The notes below the pieces were generated by a model. That model was not told the origin of the DNA, did not search any database, and saw only the letters and a list, made by a program, of their open reading frames with translations. Positions 5,162 through 64,000 of a stretch of DNA of 64,000 bases are shown here, in pieces (within the stretch, counting starts at the first letter, position 1; each line of letters opens with the position of its first letter). The stretch comes from Nakamurella sp. A5-74 (GTDB lineage: Bacteria; Actinomycetota; Actinomycetes; Mycobacteriales; Nakamurellaceae). Position numbers and translations under genes: made by a program. The stretch lies in contig NZ_CP159218.1 in NCBI RefSeq assembly GCF_040438885.1, positions 744,001 through 808,000 on the forward strand, written 5' to 3'.

Positions 5162-8100
5162 ATGACCAAGTCAACGCCAAGTCCTCCTGCGAACCCATCC
5201 GTGCAGTTCTCCCGCCGCACCTTGGTGCTCGGGGTATTGGGTGCCGTTCCGCTGTCTCTGCTCGGGCAGGGGGTGGCGCAGGCAGGCACCCTCACGGGCG
5301 TGTTCCACGGGCCGACCGGCAACGACGAGCTCTACGCCACGACGCCGACAGAGCGCGCTCCGCGCGATCCGATGGTCAGCCAGACGGTGCAGATGCACGC
5401 GACCACGTGGCCGATCTCCACAGGTCAGACCGTATGGATCACCTGGACCAAGAACGGGATCGCGCAGACCCCGGTCGGTGCGGGTTTCGACTACAACTCC
5501 GGCGGCAATTCCTATTGGACGGTCAGCCTCGGCAGCTTTGCCAAGGGTGATGCGATCAGCTACTCCGTCAATGCCGACGTCGACGGCGGCGGCACCAAGA
5601 CCACGGGGCCCTACAGCTTCAAGGTGACCGACTGGTCCCAGGCGGCGGTCGTGTCCTCCTACGTCGACAACGGCTCGTCAGTGGACGTCGCTGTCACGGA
5701 CAGCGCCGGTGCGCTCAGCCCGAAGATCCGCTTTACCTTCACCTCTGCAGGCACGTTCCGGACGCAGATCGCCCCCGCTGGAACGGGTCTCAGCATTTCG
5801 GGGTCAACTCCGTACTCCGTTACCAATTCGGCGTCCACCCTCCAACTGACCACCAGCGCCATTCAGGTCCGGATCCAGAAGAGCCCGTATCGGGTGTCGG
5901 TGTTCCAGGCCGACGGCACGACGTTGATCGCACGGCAGTACGACCCTTCGGTGTTCCGCAACACCGGGTGGGCCACCGACGCCGGGACCACCATCCGCAA
6001 GATCGAAGACCACTGGCAGATCCCCGTCGGCCAGCGGCTGGAGGGTTTGGGGGAGCGGTACGACTCGCTCGACCAGCGCGGGAAGGACGTCGACCACTAC
6101 AGCTACAACCAGTACCAGGACCAGGGCACTACCCACCGGACCTACCTGTCCGTCCCGTTCATGACGAACTCCGCCGGCTACGCGATCTACGTCCCCAGCA
6201 ACCGGTACTCGGTGTTCAACCTCGGAACGCACCTGTCGGACATGGCGGGCTTCACCGTCGACGCCTCTGGCGCAGCGAACGCCACCGTCGACTACTACTT
6301 CATCACCGGTACCCGCAGCCAGATCCTCGACACCTACACCTCACTCACCGCCCGGCCGAAGCTGCCGCCGAAGTGGGCGTTCGGACTCTGGATGTCGGCC
6401 AACGAGTGGAACACCCAGTCCGAGGTGCAGGCCCAACTGGCCAACGTCACCAGCTACGACATCCCGCACAGCGTGCTGGTGCTGGAGCAGTGGAGCGACG
6501 AGGCAACCTTCTACCTGTGGCACGGCGCCACCTACACCCCCAAGGCCGGCAGCGCCGCCCTGACCTACGCAGACCTGACGTTCCCCGCCGGCGGCGAGTG
6601 GTCGGACCCCAAGGCCATGGTGACCGCTGCCCACAACCAGAACGTCAAGGTGGTGCTGTGGCAGATCCCTGTGCTGAAGACGAACTTCGACACCAACCCG
6701 GCGACCGCCCCGCAGCAGCACCTCAACGACCGCTCCTACGCGGCCGCCCAGGGCTACCTGATCGGCGACGGTGCCGGCGGTCAGTACAAGATCCCCAGTG
6801 GGCAGTGGTTCGGCGACAGCCTGATGCCCGATTTCACCAGCACCGCTGCAACGGCGTGGTGGATGTCCAAGCGGCAGTACCTGTTCAGTGATGTCGGGAT
6901 CGACGGGATGAAGACCGACGGCAGCGAGGCGGTGATGGGACGCGGGCTCACCTTCGCCGACGGACGCAAGGGCGACGAGATGCACAACGCGTATCCGAAC
7001 GAATACACCCGGGTCTATGCCGCTGCCGTCGCGAGCGGCACCTCCAGCCAGGGCGTGCTGTTCTCCCGTGCCGGTACCGCCGGCTGCCAGGCGAACTCGA
7101 TCTTCTGGGCCGGCGACCAGGCGTCGACCTTCGCCGCCTTCCAGGACGCGATCAGGGCCGGCTTGTCGGCGGGCGCTTCCGGGGTGCCGTTCTGGACCTG
7201 GGACATGGCCGGCTTCACCGGCAGCTTCCCGAGCAGCGAGCTATACCTGCGGTCAGCTTCGGCCTCCACGTTCATGCCGATCATGCAGTACCACTCCGAG
7301 AAGTCGAACCCGTCGCCGTCCGAGGCGCGGACCCCGTGGAACGTACAGTCCCGCTCGGGCGACACCACGGTCGTGCCGACCTTCCGCAAGTTCGCCAACG
7401 TGCGGATGAACCTGATCCCGTACCTCTACACCGAGGCGAAGAAGGCTGCCGACAGCGGCCTGCCGATGATGCAAGCCATGTCGATCGCGTTCCCCGCCGA
7501 CACCACCGCAGCGGCGCTGGAGACCCAGTGGATGTGCGGCCGGCAGTTGCTCGTCTCGCCGATCGTCGCCGCCGGCGCCACCACCAAGGCCGTGCAGCTG
7601 CCGACGGGCGAGTGGTACGACTTCTTCTTCGGCGGCAAGGCATCAGGACCCGGCGTCAAGTCGTACTACGCCGGCACCGATCGGATCCCGGTGTACGCGA
7701 GCGCCGGCGCCATCATCCCGTTGAACCTAAATGCGAACTACGAACTCGGTGGTTCGATCGGCAACAGCGTCACCTCGTACACCAACCTGGTGTTCCGGAT
7801 CTATCCGTCGGGGACGTCCAGCTATGCCTACTTCGACGACGCACCAGCTCTCTCGCGGACGATCACCGTCACCGAGAACTGGGCCGGCCACCAGGTGACG
7901 GTCTCGCTGCCGGCGCTGACCACGACCAGCACGCTGCAGGTGACGACCACCCAGCCCAGCGGGGTGACCAGGGGTGGCACGGCGCTGACCGCCCGCAGTT
8001 CGCTCGCCGCCCTCATCTCGAACGCCGAGGGTTGGTACTGGGATTCGGTGGGGCAGTTCACGTTCGTCAAGGTGGCCTCGGCGGCCGCCACCCGTTCGAT

Positions 8101-8506
8101 CGTGCTGTCGGGGGTCGACAAGTCGGCGTACGAAGCCGAGTTCTCCATCCAGACCGGGGTCTCGACGAACACCAACCACCCCGGGTACACCGGGACCGGG
8201 TTCGTCGACGGCTTCGACGCGGTCGGCGATCAGCTCGACTTCGACGTCAACGTCGCCGCGACCGGCTCGCACGTACTGAAGTTCAGGTACGCCAACGGAT
8301 CAGGATCGACGGCCACCCGCACCGTGCGGGTCGACGGAACCAGTGTCGGCACGGTGTCGTTGCCGGCCCTGGCGAACTGGGACACCTGGGGGACGGCCAC
8401 CCTGACCGCCTCGCTGACCGCCGGTCGTCGCACCGTGCGGCTGGCCTACGAGTCGGCGAACGCCGGCGCGATCAACCTCGACTCGATGGTGGTGGCACGT
8501 CCATGA
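5162..8506 (+). CDS. secreted GH31 enzyme, 3-alpha-isomaltosyltransferase/cycloalternan-forming type
   Basis: Large glycoside hydrolase family 31 protein, 1114 aa from the ATG at 5162, which follows GGAG-cacc. The N-terminus carries a twin-arginine signal (SRRTLVLGVLG). Next comes a beta domain with NDELYATTPTERAPRDP and TTWPISTGQTVWITWTKNG, which I recognise from 3-alpha-isomaltosyltransferases (CtsY type) that make cyclic tetrasaccharide. The catalytic domain has the nucleophile Asp586 in MKTDGSE and a likely acid/base Asp652 in FWAGDQ. A CBM35/CBM6-like domain (YEAEFSIQTG onward, about residues 990-1114) ends the protein. Its stop overlaps the start of the second GH31 gene (ATGA). A plain alpha-glucosidase or alpha-xylosidase remains possible; the transferase call rests on remembered similarity. 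Confidence 0.8.
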   Translation: MTKSTPSPPANPSVQFSRRTLVLGVLGAVPLSLLGQGVAQAGTLTGVFHGPTGNDELYATTPTERAPRDPMVSQTVQMHATTWPISTGQTVWITWTKNGIAQTPVGAGFDYNSGGNSYWTVSLGSFAKGDAISYSVNADVDGGGTKTTGPYSFKVTDWSQAAVVSSYVDNGSSVDVAVTDSAGALSPKIRFTFTSAGTFRTQIAPAGTGLSISGSTPYSVTNSASTLQLTTSAIQVRIQKSPYRVSVFQADGTTLIARQYDPSVFRNTGWATDAGTTIRKIEDHWQIPVGQRLEGLGERYDSLDQRGKDVDHYSYNQYQDQGTTHRTYLSVPFMTNSAGYAIYVPSNRYSVFNLGTHLSDMAGFTVDASGAANATVDYYFITGTRSQILDTYTSLTARPKLPPKWAFGLWMSANEWNTQSEVQAQLANVTSYDIPHSVLVLEQWSDEATFYLWHGATYTPKAGSAALTYADLTFPAGGEWSDPKAMVTAAHNQNVKVVLWQIPVLKTNFDTNPATAPQQHLNDRSYAAAQGYLIGDGAGGQYKIPSGQWFGDSLMPDFTSTAATAWWMSKRQYLFSDVGIDGMKTDGSEAVMGRGLTFADGRKGDEMHNAYPNEYTRVYAAAVASGTSSQGVLFSRAGTAGCQANSIFWAGDQASTFAAFQDAIRAGLSAGASGVPFWTWDMAGFTGSFPSSELYLRSASASTFMPIMQYHSEKSNPSPSEARTPWNVQSRSGDTTVVPTFRKFANVRMNLIPYLYTEAKKAADSGLPMMQAMSIAFPADTTAAALETQWMCGRQLLVSPIVAAGATTKAVQLPTGEWYDFFFGGKASGPGVKSYYAGTDRIPVYASAGAIIPLNLNANYELGGSIGNSVTSYTNLVFRIYPSGTSSYAYFDDAPALSRTITVTENWAGHQVTVSLPALTTTSTLQVTTTQPSGVTRGGTALTARSSLAALISNAEGWYWDSVGQFTFVKVASAAATRSIVLSGVDKSAYEAEFSIQTGVSTNTNHPGYTGTGFVDGFDAVGDQLDFDVNVAATGSHVLKFRYANGSGSTATRTVRVDGTSVGTVSLPALANWDTWGTATLTASLTAGRRTVRLAYESANAGAINLDSMVVARP

Positions 8507-11448
8507 ACCGGAGCAGCAGAACTGATCTCCACACTTCGGCGCTGCGGATACCCGCCGCGCCGCTGACCCGCCGCCGGCGGCAACTCGCCCGGGCGCTGAG
8601 CCGCGTCGCCGTGCCCGTCCTGGCCGCCACCGCGCTGACCGTGGTCGTGGCCCCGGCCGCCCACGCTGCCGTCCAGCGCGTGCAGTTCACCGGCGCGCCC
8701 GGCTATCTGGTGGTCGAGTTCCTCGACGACGACCTGGTGCACTTCGAGATGGGAGCGGGCACCCCACCCGGCGCCGGGACCGCGATCCCGGTCACCGACC
8801 AGATCGCGAAGACCAACTACAGCGGGCCCAGCACGTTCTCCCAGTCCGGCAACACTGTGAGCTCCGCAGGACTGCGGGTAGCGGTCGACACCTCGACGCT
8901 CTGCGCAACCGTCTCGGACCTGACCAGGAACCCGGTGCTGGTGCTGCAGACGGTCTGTCCCCGCAATCTCGGTGCTGCCTGGAAGGGCTTGTCGTTCACC
9001 AAGAGCTCGATGCAGAACGCCTACGGACTCGGTGAGCAGTTCTTCACCGGAGGCAGCGCCGACGGCGACTGGGACGGCCGAACCCGCTCGTCCGCCGGGA
9101 GCTTCGGCAACGCGATGCTCTACGACGCCGACAACGGGCCGGTGGCCAACACCCAGATCCCAGTGCTCTACGCCGTGGGTGCGAACAGCGCCAACTATGC
9201 GATGTTCGTCGACCAAGTCTACAAGCAGAGCTGGAATCTCACCGGGGATCCATGGACCATGGACACCTACGGGGACCAACTCCGGTGGTACGTGATGGGT
9301 GGTCCGGACCTACCGGATCTGCGCCGTGACTACCTCGAACTGAGTGGTCGGCCGCCGGTTCCACCGAAGAAGGCCTTCGGTCTGTGGGACTCGGAGTTCG
9401 GATACGACAACTGGGCTGAGATCGACACTTTGCTCGCGAGCATGCGGACTGACGGCTTCCCGATCGACGGGTTCATGTTGGACGTCAACTGGTTCGGCGG
9501 TGTCACTGCCGGGTCCGACTCGACCAGGATGGGCACCCTGCAGTTCGACACCACGAACTTCCCCAACCCGAATACGAAGATCGCCGACTATCGCGACACC
9601 AAGGGCATCGGCCTCATGACCATCGAGGAGTCCTACGTCGGCAAGGCGCTCGCCGAACACACCACCCTGGCCAACCAGGGATACCTGGTACGTGCCGGCT
9701 GCTCGACCTGCGCCCCGGTGTACCTCACCAGCAACGACTGGTGGGGTCGAGGCGGGATGATCGATTGGACCGACTCCGCCGCTGGTGCCTACTGGGCCCA
9801 GAACAAGCGGGTTCCGCTGGTGAACAGCGGAATCATCGGCCACTGGCTGGATCTCGGCGAACCCGAGATGTACGACGCCAACGACTGGACCCAGGGCATC
9901 CTCACCGGGAAGCACGCGCACGCGGATTATCACAACCTGTACGGCCTGGAGTGGGCCAAGAGCGTCGCAGCCGGATACACCGCGGCCGGTTCGACGCAGC
10001 GACCGTTCGTCCTCGCGCGGGCGGGAGCCGGCGGTATCCAGCGATTCGGCACCGCCATGTGGTCCGGTGACATCGGCTCGAAGCTGACCGCGTTGGCTTC
10101 CCAGCAGAACGTGCAGATGCAGATTTCGATGTCCGGCATCGACTACTTCGGGTCCGACGTCGGAGGGTTCCGGCGCGAGATGCTGAACTCGGACTTGAAC
10201 GAGCTGTACACCCAGTGGTTCGCCAACTCCGCCTGGTTCGACATCCCACTGCGGCCGCACACGGAGAACCTGTGTAACTGCTACCAGACATCGCCGAACA
10301 AGATCGGTGACACCGCGAGCAACCTGGCGAACCTGCGGCAGCGGTACGAGTTGACGCCGTACTACTACTCGTTGGCGCAGCAGGCTGCCGTCACCGGCGA
10401 TCCCGTCGTGCCGCCGTTGGTCTGGGCCTACCAGAACGATCCGAACGTGCGGGAGATGGGCAACGAGAAGCTGATCGGGAAGGACCTACTGGTGGCGGTC
10501 GTCGCCGGGGCGAACGAGCGGCAGCGCAACGTGTACTTGCCGACCGGGACCTGGTTCGACTACCGGACGAATGCCAAGTATGTCTCGACCGGACAGTGGT
10601 TCAACAATGTGCCCGCCTACGTGAACGGCAAGTTCCAGCTGCCGGTGTTCGCGAGGGCCGGCGCGGTGCTGCCGACCATGTTCGTCGACGACAAGACGAT
10701 GAACGTCTTCGGCAAGCGGACGGACGGCACCACCCGGAATGAGTTGCGCGCGAAGATCTATCCGTCCGCGACGTCGTCGTCCTTCCCGTTGGTCGAGGAT
10801 GACGGGGTCACGACCGCGTACCAGGGCGGCGCCAAACGCACCACGACCATCGGGCAGACGGTCAGCGGCTCCACCCGGACCGTGACCATCGGCGCCGCGT
10901 CCGGAACCTACTCCGGAGCTCCGACGACACGGGACAACGTGGTGGAGCTGATCACGGACGGCAGCCAGGCGTCCGCGGTGACGCTCGGCGGAGTTGCCCT
11001 GACCCAGCGCGCCAACAAGGCGGCATTCGACGCGGCGACCAGCGGTTGGTACAACGCCGGCGGCAACCTTGTCGTGGCCAAGACCGGAGCGCTTGCCGTC
11101 AGCAGCGCGAAGACGCTGGTCTTCACCACCGGTCAGGCCACCGTCAGCGCGTCGATCACGTGCCAGAACGGCACGACGACGTCCGGACAGTCGGTCTATG
11201 CGCTGGGCAGTGCCACCTCGATGGGGGCTTGGTCCGCGACCGACGCGGTCAAGCTCAGCCCGACGAGCTACCCGACCTGGTCCGGCACCGTCAGCAACCT
11301 CCCGCCGAACTCCACGGTCGAGTGGAAGTGCATCAAACGGCAGGAAGCAGGCGTGCCGAACACGGTCGATGCCTATCAACCTGGGGCGAACAATGTATTT
11401 TCAACCCCGGCCTCTGGCAGTGCCGGATCGTCTACAGCATCGTTCTAG
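8503..11448 (+). CDS. secreted GH31 alpha-glucosidase/6-alpha-glucosyltransferase with CBM20
   Basis: Second GH31 enzyme, 981 aa, starting at the ATG that overlaps the previous stop. A long Sec-type signal peptide (RRRRQLARALSRVAVPVLAA ... APAAHAA) is followed by the GH31 N-terminal beta domain. The (beta/alpha)8 barrel has the nucleophile Asp450 in HWLDLGEPEMYD and a likely acid/base Asp523 in MWSGDIGS. Residues about 880-970 form a CBM20 starch-binding domain (GQSVYALGSATSMGAWSATD). The frame is open far upstream of 8503, but that part only shadows the first gene. The pairing matches the known two-enzyme scheme in which a 6-alpha-glucosyltransferase supplies panose-like ends that an isomaltosyltransferase cyclises. 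A hydrolase role is the alternative. Confidence 0.8.
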   Translation: MNRSSRTDLHTSALRIPAAPLTRRRRQLARALSRVAVPVLAATALTVVVAPAAHAAVQRVQFTGAPGYLVVEFLDDDLVHFEMGAGTPPGAGTAIPVTDQIAKTNYSGPSTFSQSGNTVSSAGLRVAVDTSTLCATVSDLTRNPVLVLQTVCPRNLGAAWKGLSFTKSSMQNAYGLGEQFFTGGSADGDWDGRTRSSAGSFGNAMLYDADNGPVANTQIPVLYAVGANSANYAMFVDQVYKQSWNLTGDPWTMDTYGDQLRWYVMGGPDLPDLRRDYLELSGRPPVPPKKAFGLWDSEFGYDNWAEIDTLLASMRTDGFPIDGFMLDVNWFGGVTAGSDSTRMGTLQFDTTNFPNPNTKIADYRDTKGIGLMTIEESYVGKALAEHTTLANQGYLVRAGCSTCAPVYLTSNDWWGRGGMIDWTDSAAGAYWAQNKRVPLVNSGIIGHWLDLGEPEMYDANDWTQGILTGKHAHADYHNLYGLEWAKSVAAGYTAAGSTQRPFVLARAGAGGIQRFGTAMWSGDIGSKLTALASQQNVQMQISMSGIDYFGSDVGGFRREMLNSDLNELYTQWFANSAWFDIPLRPHTENLCNCYQTSPNKIGDTASNLANLRQRYELTPYYYSLAQQAAVTGDPVVPPLVWAYQNDPNVREMGNEKLIGKDLLVAVVAGANERQRNVYLPTGTWFDYRTNAKYVSTGQWFNNVPAYVNGKFQLPVFARAGAVLPTMFVDDKTMNVFGKRTDGTTRNELRAKIYPSATSSSFPLVEDDGVTTAYQGGAKRTTTIGQTVSGSTRTVTIGAASGTYSGAPTTRDNVVELITDGSQASAVTLGGVALTQRANKAAFDAATSGWYNAGGNLVVAKTGALAVSSAKTLVFTTGQATVSASITCQNGTTTSGQSVYALGSATSMGAWSATDAVKLSPTSYPTWSGTVSNLPPNSTVEWKCIKRQEAGVPNTVDAYQPGANNVFSTPASGSAGSSTASF

Positions 11449-54725: not shown

Positions 54726-54814
54726 GGAAGCGTGCCAGAGCGGCCGAATGGGACACACTGCTAATGTGTTGTGCTCTTTAACGGGCACCGAGGGTTCAAA
54801 TCCCTCCGCTTCCG
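54726..54814 (+). tRNA. tRNA-Ser (anticodon GCT)
   Basis: Acceptor arms GGAAGCG (54726-54732) and CGCTTCC (54807-54813) pair fully; discriminator G. Anticodon loop CTGCTAA with GCT. A long variable arm marks it as serine. The T arm is GAGGGTTCAAATCCCTC. No CCA encoded. A TAACCT box lies at 54647-54652. Confidence 0.97.
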
Positions 54815-54873
54815 CGCAGCACACCGCAGTACGATGGAGCAGTACAACTGAACGCGGTACCCAGGTACTACCA

Positions 54874-54946
54874 GCGCCCGTGGCCCAACGGATAAGGCAT
54901 CTGACTACGGATCAGAAGACTGGGGGTTCGAATCCCTCCGGGCGCA
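54874..54946 (+). tRNA. tRNA-Arg (anticodon ACG)
   Basis: Acceptor arms GCGCCCG (54874-54880) and CGGGCGC (54939-54945) pair fully; discriminator A. Anticodon loop CTACGGA with ACG. The short variable arm and T arm GGGGGTTCGAATCCCTCC are normal. It is 59 bp after tRNA-Ser(GCT). Confidence 0.97.
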
Positions 54947-54965
54947 CTCTGTTGAGACAGGCGAG

Positions 54966-55658: not shown

Positions 55659-57128
55659 GTGATCACCGGAGAGCTCAAGGGCAAGATCGGCAGGATCTGG
55701 GATTCGTTCTGGACCGGAGGCATCTCCAACCCGCTGGAGGTGATCGAGCAGATCACCTACCTGCTGTTCCTGCGGCGGCTGGACGATCTGCAGACGCTCG
55801 CGGAGCAGAAGGCCCAGCTCACCGGTAGTGGTGTGGTGAACCCGATCTTCCTTCCCGGGCAGCAGCAGCTGCGCTGGAGCCACTTCAAGAACCTCGAGCC
55901 GGCCGTGATGCACCATCTGGTCGGCGATCAGGTTTTCCCGTTCCTCCGAGGGCTCGGCGGCGACGGCTCGACCTTCTCCGAGCACATGAAGGACGCCAGG
56001 TTCACCATCCCCACGGCTGCGCTGCTGAGCAAGGTGGTCGACCAGCTCGACGGCATCCCGATGACCGACCGCGACACCAACGGCGATCTGTACGAGTACC
56101 TGCTGTCGAAGCTGGCGAGCGCCGGCGTGAACGGGCAGTTCCGGACTCCCCGGCACATCATCGAGCTGATGGTGTCGATGACCGATCCGAAGCCCGCCGA
56201 CGAGATCTGTGACCCAGCGTGCGGTACCGCCGGTTTCCTGGTGGTCGCCTCCGAACACGTGCGCAAGCAGCATCCTGCGTTGATGACCGATGCTGCCCAG
56301 CGCAAGCACTTCCACCACAGCATGTTCCACGGGTTCGACTTCGACTCGGTGATGCTGCGCATCGGCAGCATGAACATGCTGATGCACGGCATCGAGAACC
56401 CGGACATCAGCTACCGCGACTCGCTGTCCGAGAGCGTCGCCGCGAACGCGCAGCGGTACTCGCTGATCCTCGCGAATCCGCCGTTCGCCGGCTCGCTCGA
56501 CTACGAGGCGACCAGCAAGGAGCTGCAGCAGACAGTCCGCACGAAGAAGACCGAGCTGCTGTTCATCGCGCTGTTCTTGAAGCTGCTCAAGCCCGGCGGC
56601 CGAGCAGCGGTGATCGTGCCCGACGGGGTGCTCTTCGGCTCGTCGAAGGCGCACAAGGAGCTGCGCCGCATCCTGGTCGAGGAGCAGAAGCTCGACGCCG
56701 TGGTGAAGCTGCCCTCCGGTGTTTTCCGCCCGTACGCGGGAGTGTCGACGGCGATCCTGTTCTTCACCAAGACCGACTCCGGCGGCACCGACGACGTCTG
56801 GTTCTACGACGTGCGCGCCGACGGGTTCTCGTTGGACGACAAGCGCAATCCTGTCGCCGACAACGATCTGTCGGATGTGTTGGCCCGGTGGTCGACCTTG
56901 GCCCAGCCCGACTCGCCCGAGCAGCAGAGGGCTCGCACCGAGCAGAGCTTCACCGTGCCCAAGGCCGACATCGTGGCGCAGGGCTATGACCTGTCCCTCA
57001 ACCGGTACAAGGAAGTTGTGCATGACGACACCGAGCTCCGCCCCCCGCTGGAGATCATCGCCGACATCGAGAAGCTCGAGGGCGAAATCGCCCAAGAAAC
57101 TGCCGAGCTGAAGGCGATGCTGTCGTGA
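55659..57128 (+). CDS. hsdM: type I restriction-modification DNA methyltransferase subunit
   Basis: Adenine-specific methyltransferase of 489 aa, part of the HsdM2S methylase and HsdR2M2S restriction complexes. The N-terminal helical domain (FWTGGISNPLEVIEQITYLL, residues 1-130) contacts HsdS. AdoMet motif I is DPACGTAGFLVVA near residue 185, and catalytic motif IV is NPPF near residue 273. GTG 55659 is preceded by a -10 box. Its stop overlaps the hsdS start (GTGA). It marks self DNA against the hsdR nuclease at the right edge. Confidence 0.96.
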   Translation: MITGELKGKIGRIWDSFWTGGISNPLEVIEQITYLLFLRRLDDLQTLAEQKAQLTGSGVVNPIFLPGQQQLRWSHFKNLEPAVMHHLVGDQVFPFLRGLGGDGSTFSEHMKDARFTIPTAALLSKVVDQLDGIPMTDRDTNGDLYEYLLSKLASAGVNGQFRTPRHIIELMVSMTDPKPADEICDPACGTAGFLVVASEHVRKQHPALMTDAAQRKHFHHSMFHGFDFDSVMLRIGSMNMLMHGIENPDISYRDSLSESVAANAQRYSLILANPPFAGSLDYEATSKELQQTVRTKKTELLFIALFLKLLKPGGRAAVIVPDGVLFGSSKAHKELRRILVEEQKLDAVVKLPSGVFRPYAGVSTAILFFTKTDSGGTDDVWFYDVRADGFSLDDKRNPVADNDLSDVLARWSTLAQPDSPEQQRARTEQSFTVPKADIVAQGYDLSLNRYKEVVHDDTELRPPLEIIADIEKLEGEIAQETAELKAMLS

Positions 57129-58285
57129 AGATGGTTCCGCTTGGTGAGTTGATTGCTCCCGCAAAGGTGAGACGGGCAGGAAGTGGAAATTTCCCGTTAC
57201 TCTCGATGACGATGCGCGACGGACTCGTGGATCAGAGCTCAAAGTTCAAGAAGCGCGTCGCCAGCGAAGACGTGTCGGGCTACAAAGTTGTGCAGCGCGG
57301 GCAGCTGGTTGTCGGATTCCCCATCGATGAGGGTGTCGTTGATTTCCAATCCATTTACGACCGCGGAATCGTGAGTCCTGCCTATGGCGTGTGGGATATG
57401 AGAAACCCTGAGCGCATGTCGCCGAATTATATTAAGAAGTTTTTGAGGTCAGAAGCCGCTCTGAGTTACTACAAATCGAAGCTGCGCGGAAGTACCGCCC
57501 GACGACGTTCGCTACCTACTGAGCTTTTTTTGGCGCTGAAAGTCCCTCTTCCGTCACTCGGAGAACAACGCCGGATCGCTGCGATCCTCGACAAGGCGGC
57601 GGCCATTCGAGCTCTACGGCTTCGTTCTCTCACAATGCTCGACGAGCTTCAGCAGGCGTGTTTCATAGCCGTCTTCGGAGATCCGGGCCATTGGGCTGCG
57701 CGCTGGTCAATGGCAACCATCGCGGATCTAGCAGAGTCGTTCCAGTACGGCACCTCGGAGAAATCAGGTGCCGTGGGTGAGTTCCCGATCCTTCGAATGG
57801 GAAACGTCACCAGATCGGGTAAGTTGGATCTGACAGACCTCAAATACATTGATCTGGACGCGAAGGATTTTAAGAAGTTCGGAGCTCGCCGAGGTGATTT
57901 GCTGTTCAACAGGACAAACAGTCCTGAGTTGGTAGGAAAGACCGCGGTGGTCGATGTGGACATCCCTCTGGTTCTGGCAGGCTACTTGGTTCGCGTACGA
58001 TTCGCCGCCGAGCGCCAATCCATTTTCGTCAGCTCCTACCTGAACAGTAGGTATGGTAAAGCGCTCCTGCGCGGAATGGCCAAGGGTGCCATCAATCAGG
58101 CGAACATCTCGGCCTCCGAGCTGAAAATGATTCCGATAGCATTGCCGTCAGGGAGTGCGTTGGAAACTTTCTCGTTGCGCATGACTGAGATCGCACAGCA
58201 ACGTTCAAGGATTGAACTGCAACTGTTGCAGATCAATCAGATCTTCGCCTCCCTCCAGTCCCGCGCGTTCAGGGGAGAGCTCTGA
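57125..58285 (+). CDS. hsdS: type I restriction-modification specificity subunit
   Basis: DNA-recognition subunit of 386 aa with two target-recognition domains (about 1-140 and 190-330). They are separated and followed by helical spacers (VPLPSLGEQRRIAAILDKAA, and QLLQINQIFASLQSRAFRGE at the end). The base composition is clearly richer in A/T than that of its neighbours, with codons such as TTA, ATA and AAT, most strongly in the recognition domains. This is common for hsdS and suggests that the recognition domains were exchanged by transfer. Starts at GTG overlapping hsdM; its stop overlaps the next gene (TGATG). Confidence 0.95.
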   Translation: MKMVPLGELIAPAKVRRAGSGNFPLLSMTMRDGLVDQSSKFKKRVASEDVSGYKVVQRGQLVVGFPIDEGVVDFQSIYDRGIVSPAYGVWDMRNPERMSPNYIKKFLRSEAALSYYKSKLRGSTARRRSLPTELFLALKVPLPSLGEQRRIAAILDKAAAIRALRLRSLTMLDELQQACFIAVFGDPGHWAARWSMATIADLAESFQYGTSEKSGAVGEFPILRMGNVTRSGKLDLTDLKYIDLDAKDFKKFGARRGDLLFNRTNSPELVGKTAVVDVDIPLVLAGYLVRVRFAAERQSIFVSSYLNSRYGKALLRGMAKGAINQANISASELKMIPIALPSGSALETFSLRMTEIAQQRSRIELQLLQINQIFASLQSRAFRGEL

Positions 58286-59184
58286 TGGCCCTCCCCACAT
58301 GGGATTACTTCATGGTGCCCGTCTTGCGTGCAACGCTGGACGGACAGGTCCACAGACTCCGCGCGTTGTGCGAGTTGGTCGCCGATGCCGAGTCGCTCTC
58401 GGACGACCAGCGGGCAGAGGTGCTCCCCTCGGGCGGTTTGCGTCATCAGAATCGAATTGAGTGGGCCACCACGTACCTGTTCAAGGCGGGTGCCCTGGAG
58501 CGTCCGGCACGGGGGACCTACGCGATCACCGCTGCTGGCCGTGAGCTGCTGGCGTCACACCCGGACGGCATCACCGAGCGGAACCTTCGCACCTGGACGG
58601 GCAACGGCGCCGCAGCGACCACGTGGGCGGCCGTCGAGCAGACTCCGCAGCCCGAGCCACAGACCGAGCTCGATCCGGTCGAGCAGGTCGAGACGGGTGT
58701 CGATCGCATCCATGCCGACGTCAAGCACGAGCTGCTGCTGCGGATTCATGCCCGGGAGCCGGCGTTCTTCGAGCAGGCGGTGCTCGATCTGCTGGTGGGC
58801 ATGGGCTACGGCGGCGGCGACCTCGCCGTCACCCGGACCCAGCTGTCCAACGACCACGGCATCGACGGCATCATCGACCAGGACATCCTCGGGCTCAGCC
58901 GGGTGTACGTGCAGGCGAAGCGCTATGCGCCGGACAATCCCGTCGGCCGCCCCGACATCCAGAGCTTCGTCGGTGCGCTGCACGGCCAACAGGCCAACCA
59001 GGGCGTGTTCATCACCACCGGCCGGTTCAGCAAGGGCGCCATCGACTATGCGGCCGGCGTCGCCACCCGGGTCGTGCTGATCGACGGTGCGCGGCTGGCT
59101 GAGCTGATGATCCGATACGGCATCGGCGTCCAGACCAGGCGGACTTTCACCGTCGTCGAGATTGACGAGGATTTCTTCGAATGA
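58285..59184 (+). CDS. Mrr-type restriction endonuclease
   Basis: Predicted nuclease of 299 aa with an N-terminal Mrr_N winged helix (residues about 1-95) and a C-terminal Mrr_cat PD-(D/E)xK domain. The active site is visible as Asp194 in HGIDGIIDQD and Gln210-Ala-Lys212 in VYVQAKRY; QxK in place of ExK is usual for Mrr. Mrr enzymes cut DNA with foreign methylation. It is coupled to hsdS by a TGATG overlap, so it is expressed with the modification enzymes. It may add a second kind of restriction, tuned so as not to attack the host methyl marks. Confidence 0.92.
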   Translation: MALPTWDYFMVPVLRATLDGQVHRLRALCELVADAESLSDDQRAEVLPSGGLRHQNRIEWATTYLFKAGALERPARGTYAITAAGRELLASHPDGITERNLRTWTGNGAAATTWAAVEQTPQPEPQTELDPVEQVETGVDRIHADVKHELLLRIHAREPAFFEQAVLDLLVGMGYGGGDLAVTRTQLSNDHGIDGIIDQDILGLSRVYVQAKRYAPDNPVGRPDIQSFVGALHGQQANQGVFITTGRFSKGAIDYAAGVATRVVLIDGARLAELMIRYGIGVQTRRTFTVVEIDEDFFE

Positions 59185-59291: not shown

Positions 59292-60269
59292 ATGACCGGG
59301 CCCGATGAAACTGATGCGTGGTGGGCGCTCCTGAACGTCTCGACCTGGCCGGAACGCTGGATCGAGCAAGGAGGGTCGAACTCTGTTCGCTGGCTGGATC
59401 AACCGGACACGCGCCGTGCCTGGTTGCACAAGAACACAACGATCCTGGAAGCGTCCGGTGTCGAGCAGGGAGAAGACTGGGCCGAGGTGGTCGCCTCGCA
59501 GGTCGCTGGGGCGCTCGGCGTGCCCTGCGCCGACGTCCGATTGTGTGTACGAGATGGACGTCGTGGGTCGCTGTCGCTTGATGTTGCGCCAAGGGGCTAT
59601 TCGCTCTGGCCGGCCAATGTGTGGCTCAACGAGTTGATACCTGACTACGTCCCTCACACGGAGGAAGCCCACGGAGTTGACCCGGCGCGGCCCGACGTCA
59701 AGCGACCGGGTCACACGCTCGAGAACTACCGCCAGGCTCTCGTCGATGTCGGTCCACCGCCGACTTTTCTGAACCAGTCGTTCACCGGGTTCGACGTGTT
59801 GGCGGGCTACCACGTGCTCGACGCCTTGATCGCGAACCGAGACCGGCATACCGAGAACTGGGGGGTTCTTGATCCGGGAATCAGTCCTGGCCAGGTGTTG
59901 CTGGCGCCCTCGTTCGACCACGGTGGAAGCCTCGGGTTCAACCTGTCCGACACGGACCGAGAGTCGATGCTGACGCAGGATCGTCTCGAAGAGTGGGCTC
60001 GCAGGGGCACGGCGCATCGTCTGGAACACAGGAAGGGCGAACCCCGCGCCTCCTTGGTCGATGCCGCGAGCCGGGCTCTTGATCTGGCGTCTCCAGCGGC
60101 TCGTGCATGGTGGCGTATGCACATCATGGAGCTGGATCTCTCCGAGCTGGCAGAGGTGCTCGGGGAGATCAAGGTGCCTTCGATGTCGGGGCCCGCCTGT
60201 AGGTTTACGATCGAGCTACTGAGAGTGAACCTGAGGAGGTTGCGCGATGGCATCGGCACTGCTGGCTGA
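59292..60269 (+). CDS. HipA-like kinase (toxin-type)
   Basis: Kinase-fold protein of 325 aa resembling the C-terminal part of HipA/CtkA. Lys47 (WLHKNT) and Glu65 are placed to bind ATP, the catalytic loop is ANRDRHTENW with Asp184, and the metal-binding Asp209 lies in PSFDHGGSLGF. It lacks the HipA N-terminal subdomain, which may instead be supplied by the next gene, whose start lies 23 bp inside this one. HipA kinases phosphorylate targets such as aminoacyl-tRNA synthetases and stop growth. Its position inside a restriction operon suggests a defence or operon-addiction role; this is inference. Confidence 0.75.
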   Translation: MTGPDETDAWWALLNVSTWPERWIEQGGSNSVRWLDQPDTRRAWLHKNTTILEASGVEQGEDWAEVVASQVAGALGVPCADVRLCVRDGRRGSLSLDVAPRGYSLWPANVWLNELIPDYVPHTEEAHGVDPARPDVKRPGHTLENYRQALVDVGPPPTFLNQSFTGFDVLAGYHVLDALIANRDRHTENWGVLDPGISPGQVLLAPSFDHGGSLGFNLSDTDRESMLTQDRLEEWARRGTAHRLEHRKGEPRASLVDAASRALDLASPAARAWWRMHIMELDLSELAEVLGEIKVPSMSGPACRFTIELLRVNLRRLRDGIGTAG

Positions 60270-61062
60270 TCTTCGCCCGCCGATCCGGGCCTCACATCTC
60301 AGCTCGGACCTCCTCGTGCTGTGGCAGCATCCCGAATCGCGTGAGATCGCGCCCATCGGTCGCTTGACTCACCACGGCTCAGATTTTGCGTTCAGCTACA
60401 CCCAGGCGGCAGCCCAAATTCAAGGTTTCCGAGTGCTCCCCGGCTTGCCCGACTTGCGGCGAAGCTACCGATCGGCGGAGATACCTCTGGTCTTCGGTCA
60501 GCGTGTGCTCGCTCGGTCTCGCCCCGACTACGCGAGCTACATCCGTTCACTGGGGCTCGATCCTGAGGACGCGACCCCATGGGAGCAGATCGTCAGCTCA
60601 GGCGGTCATCGAGAGGGCGACACACTCCAGTTCTTGGTCGTGCCCGAAGTACGCGGCGGCAATGCGCGCGTGACCTTCCTCGCCAATGGGGTCCGGCACA
60701 TCCCGGACGGTGAGCTTCGTTTTGATGGCAGATCTGAACGGGTGTCTCGGGACCGACAAGAACGGGAGCTTGTCGCACTCCACGAAAGCGACACGCTCCG
60801 AGTGGTCCCCGAAGATGAGAACGCGCATGACGCGAATGCGTGCCTGATTGTCGCTGGCGCCACCCCGGTTGCGTGGGTGCCGCGGTTCCTCGCGCCCAGT
60901 TTTCGTGGGCTGCTCGAGGGTGGTGACGTCTCGGTCCGCGTCGAACGCGTGGGTGCCCGAGAAGGGTCCCCGCATCTGCGGCTGACGTTGGAGCTCGATC
61001 ACCCTGCGCCCGAGGGATTCGCATTCGACCGAGACGGTCTGTGGGCTCCCCTGTCGGCCTGA
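60247..61062 (+). CDS. HipA-N-like / HIRAN-domain partner protein
   Basis: Protein of 271 aa. ATG 60247 has GAGGAGG seven bases upstream, inside the end of the kinase gene. Residues about 20-105 (IGRLTHHGSDFAFSYTQAAA, then EIPLVFGQRVLARSRPDYAS) look like the N-terminal subdomain 1 of HipA. Residues about 175-250 (LRVVPEDENAHDANACLIVA, ATPVAWVPRFLAPSF) look like a HIRAN domain, a fold that in other proteins binds DNA ends. A split kinase plus N-subdomain protein recalls the HipS/HipT pair of HipBST systems, where the small protein restrains the kinase. HIRAN makes this one different. The assignment is from motifs only. Confidence 0.65.
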   Translation: MASALLADLRPPIRASHLSSDLLVLWQHPESREIAPIGRLTHHGSDFAFSYTQAAAQIQGFRVLPGLPDLRRSYRSAEIPLVFGQRVLARSRPDYASYIRSLGLDPEDATPWEQIVSSGGHREGDTLQFLVVPEVRGGNARVTFLANGVRHIPDGELRFDGRSERVSRDRQERELVALHESDTLRVVPEDENAHDANACLIVAGATPVAWVPRFLAPSFRGLLEGGDVSVRVERVGAREGSPHLRLTLELDHPAPEGFAFDRDGLWAPLSA

Positions 61063-61271: not shown

Positions 61272-62294
61272 ATGACACGAGGCAGGCCGTCGCGCGCCAC
61301 GGTGTACGCCCGTCTCGAGAGTGCCATCAACGAGCTCAACCACCGCTTCGGCGGCCTTCCGTCACCGACGGAAGCCAAGTTCGTCTGGGACGACATCTGG
61401 CATCTGGAAGCCCACCACTCGACCGCGTTGGAGGGCAACACCCTCGTCTTGCGTGAAGTGGAGGCACTGCTCGACCGTGGCCGGGCCGTCGGGTCGAAGC
61501 CGCTCAAGGAATACCTGGAGGTGCAGGGATACGCGGCTGCCGCCCACTGGGTCTACAGCCAAGCGGTCGAAGCGGATAATGACCCCGACGCCGTGCTCAT
61601 CACCGTCACCGAAATTCGGCGCATCCACGAGTTGGCACTCGGCCCCGTCTGGCAGGTCGCGCCGCATCCGGATGCCACCGAGCGGGAGGTGCCCGGTCAG
61701 TTCCGCGAACACGAGATCGCGCCGTTCGGCAGCGGGATGGTCCCGCCGACCTGGCCGTTGGTACCGGCTCAGCTGACGGGTTGGGTCGACAAGGTGAACG
61801 CGAGCCGGGAAGCGCTGGTGGACCGGCAGTCTGATGCGATCCCCGTCCCGGAACTGCTGGCCGAGCTGCATTCCGGCTTCGAGCAGATCCACCCGTTCCT
61901 CGACGGCAACGGGCGAACGGGACGTCTTGCTCTCAACCTGGTGCTCGTCCGGTCAGGATTTCCACCGGTGGTGGTGCTGAAGCAGCAGCGACCCGGCTAT
62001 CTGACTGCGCTGCAGCGCAGCGATGACGGAGACCACGGTGCCCTCGGCGAGATTCTGGCCCGGGGCATGCTCGACAACCTGAACCGATTCATCGTTCCGG
62101 CGGTTGCCGGCCCGGCCCGGCTGGTACCACTGGCTGCGCTGGCCGACGCCGAGTTCTCGGTGGCCGCCCTCCGACAAGCAGCCCAGCGAGGGCGACTCGA
62201 AGCCGTCCAGAGCGCAGATGGTGTGTGGCGCAGTACCCGAGCTGCCGTAGCCCACTACGCAGTCGTCAAAGGTCAACGCGGGGGTCCCGGATGA
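61272..62294 (+). CDS. Fic-family AMPylase (class II, self-inhibited)
   Basis: Fic enzyme of 340 aa that transfers AMP or another nucleotide part to target proteins. The catalytic motif is HPFLDGNGRTGR with His207. An N-terminal inhibitory helix carries S50-T-A-L-E54-G-N, matching the (S/T)xxxE(G/N) motif that blocks ATP binding in class II Fic proteins. So the toxin and its brake are on one chain. A winged-helix-like tail follows (ADAEFSVAALRQAAQRGRLE). Its stop overlaps the hsdR start (ATGA), so it is tied to the restriction subunit. Its target is unknown. Confidence 0.92.
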   Translation: MTRGRPSRATVYARLESAINELNHRFGGLPSPTEAKFVWDDIWHLEAHHSTALEGNTLVLREVEALLDRGRAVGSKPLKEYLEVQGYAAAAHWVYSQAVEADNDPDAVLITVTEIRRIHELALGPVWQVAPHPDATEREVPGQFREHEIAPFGSGMVPPTWPLVPAQLTGWVDKVNASREALVDRQSDAIPVPELLAELHSGFEQIHPFLDGNGRTGRLALNLVLVRSGFPPVVVLKQQRPGYLTALQRSDDGDHGALGEILARGMLDNLNRFIVPAVAGPARLVPLAALADAEFSVAALRQAAQRGRLEAVQSADGVWRSTRAAVAHYAVVKGQRGGPG

Positions 62295-64000
62295 GCAACT
62301 TCGCCTTTCTCAGGACGGCGATGCCGTCGGTATACGGCGACTGCGCCAGAGCCGAGTCGTACCTCAGCAGCGACCCGCGGTCGGTGTGTTTCTACAGTCG
62401 GCGCGCCATCGAGCTGCTGGTCGAGCGGCTGTACGACGTGCTGGATCTCCCGCAGCCGTACAAGAAGGACCTGGCTGCCCGCACGGATGCGCCGGGGTTC
62501 AAGAAGATCACCGGTCTCGGAATCACCCAGAAGCTGACGTTGATCCGGATGATGGGCAACAACGCTGTCCACAAGAGCCAGCCGATCTCGCCGCACACCG
62601 CGCTCCAGGTCGTGCAGCAGCTGTTCGATGTGATGGTCTGGGCGACCTTCCACCACTCGGCTGCTCCGCAGCTTTCGCCGACCGGGTCCCAGTTCGACCC
62701 GGCGCTGGCCGCCAAGGCCGCACCGCTCAGCCGCGACGAGATCGGCGCGCTGTTCCAGAAATTCAAGGTCCAGGACGAAGCCCACGCCCAACAGCTGGCT
62801 GCGAAGAACGATCTGCTGCTCGCCCACGAGGCCGAGATCGCGAAGCTGCGAGCGCAGATCGCGGCCGCGCAGGCGGCGAACCAGAAGGTCGACGATCACG
62901 ACTACTCCGAGGCGGAAACTCGGGATCTGTTCATCGATCTGATGCTGAACGAGGCGGGCTGGCCGCTCGTGGACAAACAGAATCGCGAGTATCCCGTCAC
63001 CGGTATGCCCAACGGGCCGGGCAAGGGATTTGTCGACTACGTGCTGTGGGGTGCTGACGGGCTGCCGCTCGCGGTGGTCGAGGCCAAGCGCACCACGAAA
63101 AGTGCCTTGCACGGTCAGCAGCAGGCGAAACTGTACGCAGACTGCCTCGAGCAGCAGTTCGGTCGACGACCGATCGTGTTTTACACCAACGGCTATCAGC
63201 ACTGGCTCTGGGACGACAAGGGCGGCTATCCGCCGCGGGAGATCCAGGGTTTCTACACGCGCGACGAACTGGATCTGCTGATCCAACGACGCACCACCAG
63301 GCTGCCGTTGAGCACGGGGATTGTCGATGCGGCCGTCGCCGGCCGGCCCTACCAGGTCCGCGCCATCAAGGCGGTGGGCGATGCCTTCGATCGCAAGCAG
63401 CGACAAGCCCTGCTGGTGATGGCGACCGGCTCCGGCAAGACCCGCACCGTCATCGCGCTCGTCGAACAGCTGATGAAGGCCAACTGGTGCAAGCGTGTGC
63501 TCTTCCTCGCCGACCGGACTGCGCTCGTCAACCAGGCGGCCAATGCCTTCAAGACCCACCTGCCCAGCGTGACGACCGTCAACCTGGTGACGGAGAAGGC
63601 CGTCGACGGCCGGGTGTATGTCTCCACATATCCGACGATGCTGAACCTGATCAACCAGCTCGACGGCACCCGGAAGTTCGGGCCCGGCTACTTCGACCTC
63701 ATCGTGATCGACGAGGCGCACCGCTCGGTGTACGCCAAGTACGGTGCGATCTTCGACTGGTTCGACTCGCTGCTCGTCGGACTCACAGCCACCCCCAAGG
63801 ACGAGGTCGACCACAACACGTACCGGCTCTTCCACCTGGAGGACGGTGTCCCGACAGATGCCTACAGTCTCGAAGAGGCCGTGTCCGAGGGGTATCTCGT
63901 ACCGCCCAAGGGTGTTGCGGTCGGGACGAAGTTCCTCCGACAGGGCATCAAGTACGACGACCTCTCCGATGAGGAGAAAGACGAATGGGACGCGATCGAC
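62291..64000 (+). CDS. hsdR: type I restriction endonuclease subunit (cut by right window edge)
   Basis: The motor and nuclease subunit of the restriction complex; 570 residues are visible and the frame is open at the edge. The N-terminal ~130 residues form a DUF4145-like helical domain (CFYSRRAIELLVERLYDVLD), then a coiled-coil stretch rich in Ala/Gln. The nuclease core is FVDYVLWGADGLPLAVVEAK with the ExK near residue 263. The helicase part shows Walker A ATGSGKT near residue 377, DEAH near residue 473, and motif III GLTATP. ATG 62291 overlaps the Fic stop. The rest of the motor and the C-terminal domain must lie beyond 64000. Confidence 0.95.
   Translation, partial: MSNFAFLRTAMPSVYGDCARAESYLSSDPRSVCFYSRRAIELLVERLYDVLDLPQPYKKDLAARTDAPGFKKITGLGITQKLTLIRMMGNNAVHKSQPISPHTALQVVQQLFDVMVWATFHHSAAPQLSPTGSQFDPALAAKAAPLSRDEIGALFQKFKVQDEAHAQQLAAKNDLLLAHEAEIAKLRAQIAAAQAANQKVDDHDYSEAETRDLFIDLMLNEAGWPLVDKQNREYPVTGMPNGPGKGFVDYVLWGADGLPLAVVEAKRTTKSALHGQQQAKLYADCLEQQFGRRPIVFYTNGYQHWLWDDKGGYPPREIQGFYTRDELDLLIQRRTTRLPLSTGIVDAAVAGRPYQVRAIKAVGDAFDRKQRQALLVMATGSGKTRTVIALVEQLMKANWCKRVLFLADRTALVNQAANAFKTHLPSVTTVNLVTEKAVDGRVYVSTYPTMLNLINQLDGTRKFGPGYFDLIVIDEAHRSVYAKYGAIFDWFDSLLVGLTATPKDEVDHNTYRLFHLEDGVPTDAYSLEEAVSEGYLVPPKGVAVGTKFLRQGIKYDDLSDEEKDEWDAID

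Follow-up and report, generated by a model that had tools for sequence, protein, structure and literature searches.

A hipIN kinase and partner gene pair within a restriction gene cluster of Nakamurella sp. A5-74

The two overlapping genes hipI and hipN of Nakamurella sp. A5-74 are supported as a member of the known hipIN family: hipI encodes a split HipA-like kinase, hipN encodes a partner that joins a HipS-like domain to a HIRAN domain, and no HipB gene is found with them. This is no new kind of system; what our analysis adds to the known hipIN is the embedding of the pair among restriction genes, the pattern of its decay, and its carriage by phages. The name hipIN has stood for a prediction since 2021; should HipN couple the sensing of DNA ends to a HipA-type kinase, the pair would be a toxin switch that is triggered by phage DNA or damage and needs no transcriptional antitoxin, and the locus, where Mrr and Fic are clustered with a type I system, offers a compact setting for asking whether restriction products trigger hipIN.

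The window, i.e. the whole stretch of 64,000 nucleotides that we have analysed, holds the genes in the order hsdM, hsdS, mrr, hipI, hipN, fic and hsdR (Table 1); hipI and hipN overlap by 23 bp on the same strand, with both frames open. The pair corresponds to the PADLOC candidate PDC-M03, with HipI matched by PDC-M03A (E 2e-99) and HipN by PDC-M03B (E 2.6e-68). The initial annotation had noted the absence of a HipB-type helix-turn-helix (HTH) gene, and this absence has been confirmed: no HTH family is above the cut-off in hsdM, hsdS, mrr, fic or hsdR (the last as far as the window end), and no HTH match occurs in ten further overlapping or antisense open reading frames; Mrr weakly resembles the AbiEi_4 regulator family (E 0.014). 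An Rfam scan and a scan for sigma-70-like promoters have returned nothing at this locus, while five terminator-like sites have been counted, against a mean of 1.3 in shuffled sequences.

Table 1. Genes, domains and motifs of the restriction cluster; coordinates are counted from the first nucleotide of the window.
Feature	Coordinates	Strand	Basis and remarks
hsdM, type I RM methyltransferase	55659..57128	+	context
hsdS, type I RM specificity subunit	57125..58285	+	context
mrr, type IV restriction endonuclease	58285..59184	+	context
hipI, short HipA-like Ser/Thr kinase, 325 aa	59292..60269	+	open frame, PDC-M03A, predicted fold
hipI motifs			Gly-rich-loop region near residues 25-32, K47, DRHxEN 184-189, D209
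hipN, HipS-like + HIRAN partner, 271 aa, putative antitoxin/sensor	60247..61062	+	PDC-M03B, predicted fold
HipS-like domain of HipN, residues 19-133	60301..60645	+	model match; R86 and R92 identical in 76/76 aligned proteins
HIRAN domain of HipN, residues 136-266	60652..61044	+	model match; R150, N192, D195 as in HLTF
fic, Fic/DOC family protein	61272..62294	+	context
hsdR, type I RM restriction subunit	62225..64000	+	context; frame continues beyond window end

Comparison with known systems

In the accessible part of Gerdes et al. 2021 (PMC8262856), hipIN is defined as a HipI kinase with a HipS-HIRAN protein, HipN, as its putative antitoxin, and it is proposed that the HIRAN domain recognises phage DNA ends and activates HipI, with the infection being aborted. 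As far as it is described there, hipIN shares with the window pair the short kinase without N-subdomain 1, the HipS-HIRAN gene located downstream and the lack of HipB, with no defining difference; HipI of the window is slightly longer, at 325 aa, than the 279-321 aa that are given for the HipG/I/J/M kinases in the same part of the paper. The words “restriction” and “Fic” are absent from its main text. No difference has been found from PADLOC's PDC-M03 either, the A and B profile matches being adjacent in the window, and no paper in the literature searched refers to PDC-M03 by name. The same search, with most subscription papers and bioRxiv preprints outside its scope, has found no experimental test of any hipIN.

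The closest further systems differ in their partner or in their arrangement. HipL has the same three domains in the same order, but in one chain, whereas the window has two genes. HipBST has a separate HipS-fold partner, HipS being the inhibitor, next to a HipT-like kinase, as in the window; in contrast to HipBST, the window is without HipB and its HipN has an added HIRAN domain. The initial annotation had cited HipS as the antitoxin to HipT, in agreement with the accessible part of PMC10627512, where HipS inhibits HipT directly, with its Trp65 inserted at the active site. We have rejected the identity of the window pair with canonical HipBST, because no HTH gene is found among the five neighbours and the ten overlapping reading frames, and with canonical hipBA, because the kinase lacks its own N-subdomain 1 and has no HipB partner. 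HipAD (DS-6, PDC-M66) is also a two-gene system of a kinase and a non-HipB partner, but its partner is a DUF3037 protein instead of a HipS-HIRAN protein; for HipA-like kinases with DUF3037, the accessible parts of PMC12548924 and PMC13092281 report that phage defence depends on the kinase and that deletion of the partner gene is toxic.

Finally, HipA-HIRAN pairs in actinobacterial defence islands have been described together with a DEDD nuclease as diDNase-HipA-HIRAN clusters, with a predicted role in phage defence (PMC11706625, accessible part). These clusters, as described there, have the HipA-HIRAN pair in common with the window, but the window contains no diDNase match better than E 1.9 (tblastn), and the idea of a diDNase remnant between hipN and fic has been dropped; the genome of the window as a whole has a single, distant match, at 3038836 (E 3.1e-6). 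Among the relatives of the pair (see below), a DEDD-type nuclease gene adjoins hipN in L016 (10756-11376), L024 (11768-12394), L026 (11726-12412) and L027 (11680-12384), and the L016 nuclease matches the solved diDNase structures 9qrf, the “ancestor of diDNase” (E 1.7e-41), and 9f7d (E 2.9e-25).

Domains of the two proteins and the mechanism that they suggest

The AlphaFold2 model of HipI, obtained with a 76-sequence alignment, has a pLDDT of 94.1; its best structural match is CtkA of H. pylori (Z 26.6), followed by HipT of 8ezr (Z 17.4) and HipA (Z 16.7). The sequence profile of HipI reaches CtkA at E 8.5e-15 and HipT merely at E 0.5, and the Pfam match to HipA_C, at E 3.2e-5, is under the Pfam cut-off. 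According to the initial annotation, the kinase keeps its ATP-binding and catalytic residues and lacks the N-terminal subdomain of HipA; both points are borne out. Residues G28, K47, E65, D184, N189 and D209 are identical in 76/76 aligned kinases (window included), with alignment columns 177-186 being partly fixed by the pattern that was used to collect the relatives, and the model matches E. coli HipA starting at HipA residue 64-65 or 122-125, so that HipI is without N-subdomain 1.

The model of HipN (76-sequence alignment, pLDDT 91.4) has two domains. Residues 19-133 match the HipS chains 7vkb_B (Z 11.8), 8ezr_A (Z 11.7) and 7ab3_E (Z 11.2), as well as the N-terminal domain of HipA (7czo, Z 9.6), while residues 136-266 match the HIRAN structures 3k2y (Z 12.9) and HLTF 4xzf (Z 10.3); the sequence profile of HipN reaches 3k2y (E 1.9e-7) and HLTF (E 0.008). 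The partner had been described as a HipA-N1-like region followed by a HIRAN-like domain, and the models of the proteins, each predicted alone, place both folds within the hipN frame. The suggested profile search for HIRAN has succeeded in part: with matches accepted up to E 0.01, 63/76 of the aligned HipN proteins contain Pfam HIRAN and 13/76 contain Couple_hipA, but the window HipN itself has no Pfam match, to these two families or to any other.

In order to compare the HIRAN domain with that of HLTF, we have used the DNA-end contacts R71, Y72, N91, Y93, D94 and H110 of HLTF. The corresponding residues of the window HipN are R150, H151, N192, H194, D195 and W210, with the Arg, Asn and Asp kept and the rest replaced by His, His and Trp; the equivalences from N91 to H110 derive from a profile alignment, and those of R71 and Y72 were placed by eye outside that alignment. 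Over 88 HipN rows, some of which are near-duplicates (e.g. L009/L079), the R71 position is Arg in 79 and the N91 position is Asn in 87; the Y72 position is His in 59 and Tyr in 23, the D94 position is Asn in 43 and Asp in 34, and the H110 position is Tyr in 41 and Trp in 37. Because R150, N192 and D195 alone are kept among these contacts, DNA-end sensing by HipN is plausible, though unproven. The accessible part of PMC8262856 names actinobacterial HipN, which is without most of the DNA-contact motifs, as an exception among the HIRAN domains that keep them.

We give roughly an even chance to a mechanism where a toxic HipI is held by HipN, DNA ends release it through the HIRAN domain, and infection aborts. 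HipI would be a toxic Ser/Thr kinase, whose target, by analogy with HipA and HipT, might be an aminoacyl-tRNA synthetase or another component of translation; HipN would bind HipI through the HipS-like domain, replacing the N-subdomain 1 that HipA has in cis, and the kinase would be kept off. The HIRAN domain would serve as the input: upon the binding of a DNA end, from phage DNA, replication intermediates or restriction products, HipN would loosen, and the freed HipI would phosphorylate its target, leading to growth arrest and an abortive infection. The role of HipN as the antitoxin is well motivated by its predicted HipS fold, its strict linkage with the kinase and the direction of decay (see below). 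HipL-like single chains in viral loci and in Escherichia phage 899, the hsdM genes near some of the related loci, the data on HipA-like kinases with DUF3037 and the inhibition of HipT by HipS also speak for the mechanism. It is weakened by the partial conservation of the HIRAN pocket; moreover, searching for HipS chains with a profile of nothing but the HipS-like domain has given no residue-level alignment, and with it no counterparts in HipN of the inhibitory HipS residues Glu63 and Trp65. The fused HipL counts against it as well, given that it cannot work by the plain loss of an antitoxin.

Linkage, decay and spread of the pair

The relatives of the window pair have been collected by scanning a 14-sequence kinase alignment over one genome per species, with the best 80 of at least 368 confirmed loci being kept; the collection is keyed on the kinase, and lone HipN genes could not appear in it. 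The kinase alignment holds 75 of the 80 loci, which together with the window make 76 (L033, L045, L049, L050 and L097, with short or split kinases, are left out), and the HipN alignment also holds 75 of the 80 (L045, L084, L094, L095 and L103 are left out for a low score or for trouble with the start or the kinase). In these best 80 of at least 368 loci, hipN is located directly 3' of the kinase gene on the same strand in every case (80/80); with the starts that were chosen here, the genes overlap in 70 and are 1 to 132 bp apart in the other 10. The distances among HipI and among HipN sequences are correlated over 72 pairs, window included (Mantel r 0.84; the best of 999 permutations reached 0.088). 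The strict linkage and the correlated distances indicate that HipI and HipN evolve as one unit.

Damage to the pair falls mostly on the kinase. The kinase frame is split in 5 of the best 80 of at least 368 loci, with HipN whole in all five, and the reverse occurs in none; these counts are small, and several of the loci come from metagenome assemblies, which may contain sequencing errors. L065, which had been flagged for HipN damage, has an intact HipN, with an extra fragment at a distance. The Oscillatoria plasmid locus L022 (7852-8735) retains only the last 35 kinase profile positions, followed by a whole HipN; in L021, on a Mycolicibacterium plasmid, three fragments of the kinase lie among IS genes, and HipN is whole; and in L010 and L012 the kinase is partial and HipN is whole. 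A search of the order has given eleven HipN loci besides that of the window (L118-L128). In three of them HipN is strongly matched, but the kinase is spread over two frames (L121), almost gone (L123) or missing (L125, genome G412); L126 has a HipN fragment and no kinase, and both genes are fragmented in L128. Two loci have no HipN match: L013, with a weak kinase match, which perhaps belongs to another HipA family, and none for HipN in 3.2 kb, and L011, which is located at a contig end. In G412, a genome of the same genus, hipN comes after a SNF2-type helicase gene, and the 17 kb examined contain no kinase match (L133, G412:C1:2556000-2573000, 7993-9366, minus strand); the end of this hipN continues, out of frame, into a GNAT gene. 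A HipN-GNAT fusion has been considered for it and dropped: as read from the translation, HipN loses its frame ahead of the GNAT start, which looks like decay.

This direction of decay, where the kinase is broken or lost and HipN stays mostly whole, is as expected if HipI is harmful without HipN. It also bears on an alternative that we regard as somewhat unlikely, where HipN is an activating or targeting subunit: HipI and HipN would rebuild a HipA-like kinase, which the HIRAN domain would bring to DNA ends, for the phosphorylation of DNA-bound phage or host proteins. HipN does supply a domain that HipA carries in cis, and HipL-like single reading frames fit the idea of a sensor-effector enzyme more readily than that of an antitoxin that can be removed; however, decayed copies retain HipN in the manner of an antitoxin, and inhibition by the HipS of HipBST has been demonstrated (PMC10627512, accessible part).

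The spread of the pair has raised a further alternative, which we consider quite unlikely: an ordinary addiction module that stabilises a mobile restriction island, plasmid or phage, with the HIRAN domain just anchoring HipN to DNA or serving autoregulation. In its favour, hipIN is sporadic in the order (10/200 genomes, the window's own included) and it occurs on mobile elements: among 72,556 plasmid records, HipN is found in 8, with the kinase in 7 of these, and among 50,697 phage records, the kinase is found in 6, with HipN in four of the 6 (tblastn). A collection of viral contigs has provided 26 kinase loci, with a HipN match in 24; of the other two, L155 stops directly behind the kinase, and the match in L159 is weak. 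Against it, no HTH regulator is seen in the five neighbours and ten other reading frames, clustering with restriction genes points to defence, and an end-binding domain is not needed for addiction. In L023 (11590-13301), one of four Vibrio cyclitrophicus phage records (order Vinavirales), the hipIN pair adjoins an integrase gene, and in a Clostridioides phage (L167, 2872-4461) genes with HipA and HIRAN domains stand in a row, also beside an integrase gene. Escherichia phage 899 (L168, 2605-4164) has the kinase and HipS-HIRAN profiles in one reading frame, similarly to HipL; the same arrangement is seen in five of the viral loci (L143, L144, L146-L148), of which L146, L147 and L148 are alike.

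The genome of the window has a second hipIN (L129, G000:C1:186000-202000, 6903-8799, minus strand), located beside SNF2/SWIM helicase, DUF3375 and DUF4194/MksE genes, a Wadjet-like neighbourhood; the SNF2-type helicase of G412 is 40% identical to the one found here. A further HipA_C match in the same genome (L001, G000:C1:859585-859818) has a stop within the matched stretch.

The restriction neighbourhood

Searching the best 80 of at least 368 loci with the window proteins has given matches to hsdM in 12, hsdS in 8, hsdR in 8, fic in 3 and mrr in 2, numbers that are undercounts, as they depend on single window queries and on loci that are cut by contig ends (more than 8 kb is available on both sides in 36/80); hsdM is not seen in the other 68, many of which are cut in this way. 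As a background, searching 149 Actinomycetota genomes (the window's own included) with this hsdM query has given 80 matches, and about 0.6 matches would be expected in the 1.26 Mb of the 80 loci if every genome had 1.2 Mb, the size of the smallest genome listed (75 are unlisted); this background is rough, as it covers Actinomycetota alone and was scored by another program than the 80 loci. With hsdM present in merely 12 of these 80 loci, restriction is no fixed partner of hipIN, and a general dependence of hipIN on type I restriction-modification has been rejected.

Placement among restriction genes nevertheless recurs. The pair is located between hsd genes in L052 (hsdS and hsdM), L075 (an hsdM-like gene and hsdS) and L093 (hsdR and hsdS/hsdM), and between hsdS and a methyltransferase gene on a Rhodococcus plasmid; in L067 (5084-15144) the order is hsdS, GmrSD, hipIN, hsdR. 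In G045, where the nearest hsdM relative has been found (65% identity), the order is hsdM-hsdS-hsdR with no insert, and the same holds for G054, where a Mrr-like frame is located beyond hsdM on the opposite strand. A Gordonia operon has mrr after hsdS, with hipIN outside the operon, and L165 (7107-14335) has a Fic gene in the presumed hsdS-hsdR gap, where hsdM and fic were matched while hsdS and hsdR were judged by size and order. On the comparison of operons with and without an insert (G045, G054), the hsdS-hsdR gap resembles a cargo site, occupied by Mrr-hipIN-Fic in the window, GmrSD-hipIN in L067 and Fic in L165. A type IV enzyme thus accompanies hipIN in the gap of two operons, those of the window and L067; the enzymes differ and the kinases are 31% identical, and the cargo has likely arrived separately in each.

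In this setting, the pair might act as a back-up alarm, a variant of the proposed mechanism that we find distinctly doubtful: HsdR or Mrr (GmrSD in an Arthrobacter relative) would cut, the infection would continue, and the HIRAN domain would bind the ends and release HipI. If true, one operon would unite first-line cutting with a growth arrest that is triggered by ends. The initial annotation had offered ends made by HsdR or Mrr as the trigger; as a general trigger they are disfavoured by the counts of hsdM (12), hsdR (8) and mrr (2) in the 80 loci.

It is highly improbable that the window pair is inactive on account of V32 beside the Gly-rich loop of HipI, a position that is Lys in 70/76 aligned kinases and Val in 3/76 alone (window included), as HipI retains the remaining invariant catalytic positions and neither frame is interrupted.

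The nearest gene could be called upstream of hipIN for 77/80 loci and downstream for 75/80; a glutamyl-tRNA-synthetase gene has been dropped as a candidate neighbour, as it occurs upstream in a single locus of the 77, L091, at the edge of a contig. In the window, a tRNA-Ser and a tRNA-Arg gene are located at 54726-54947, just 5' of the restriction genes.
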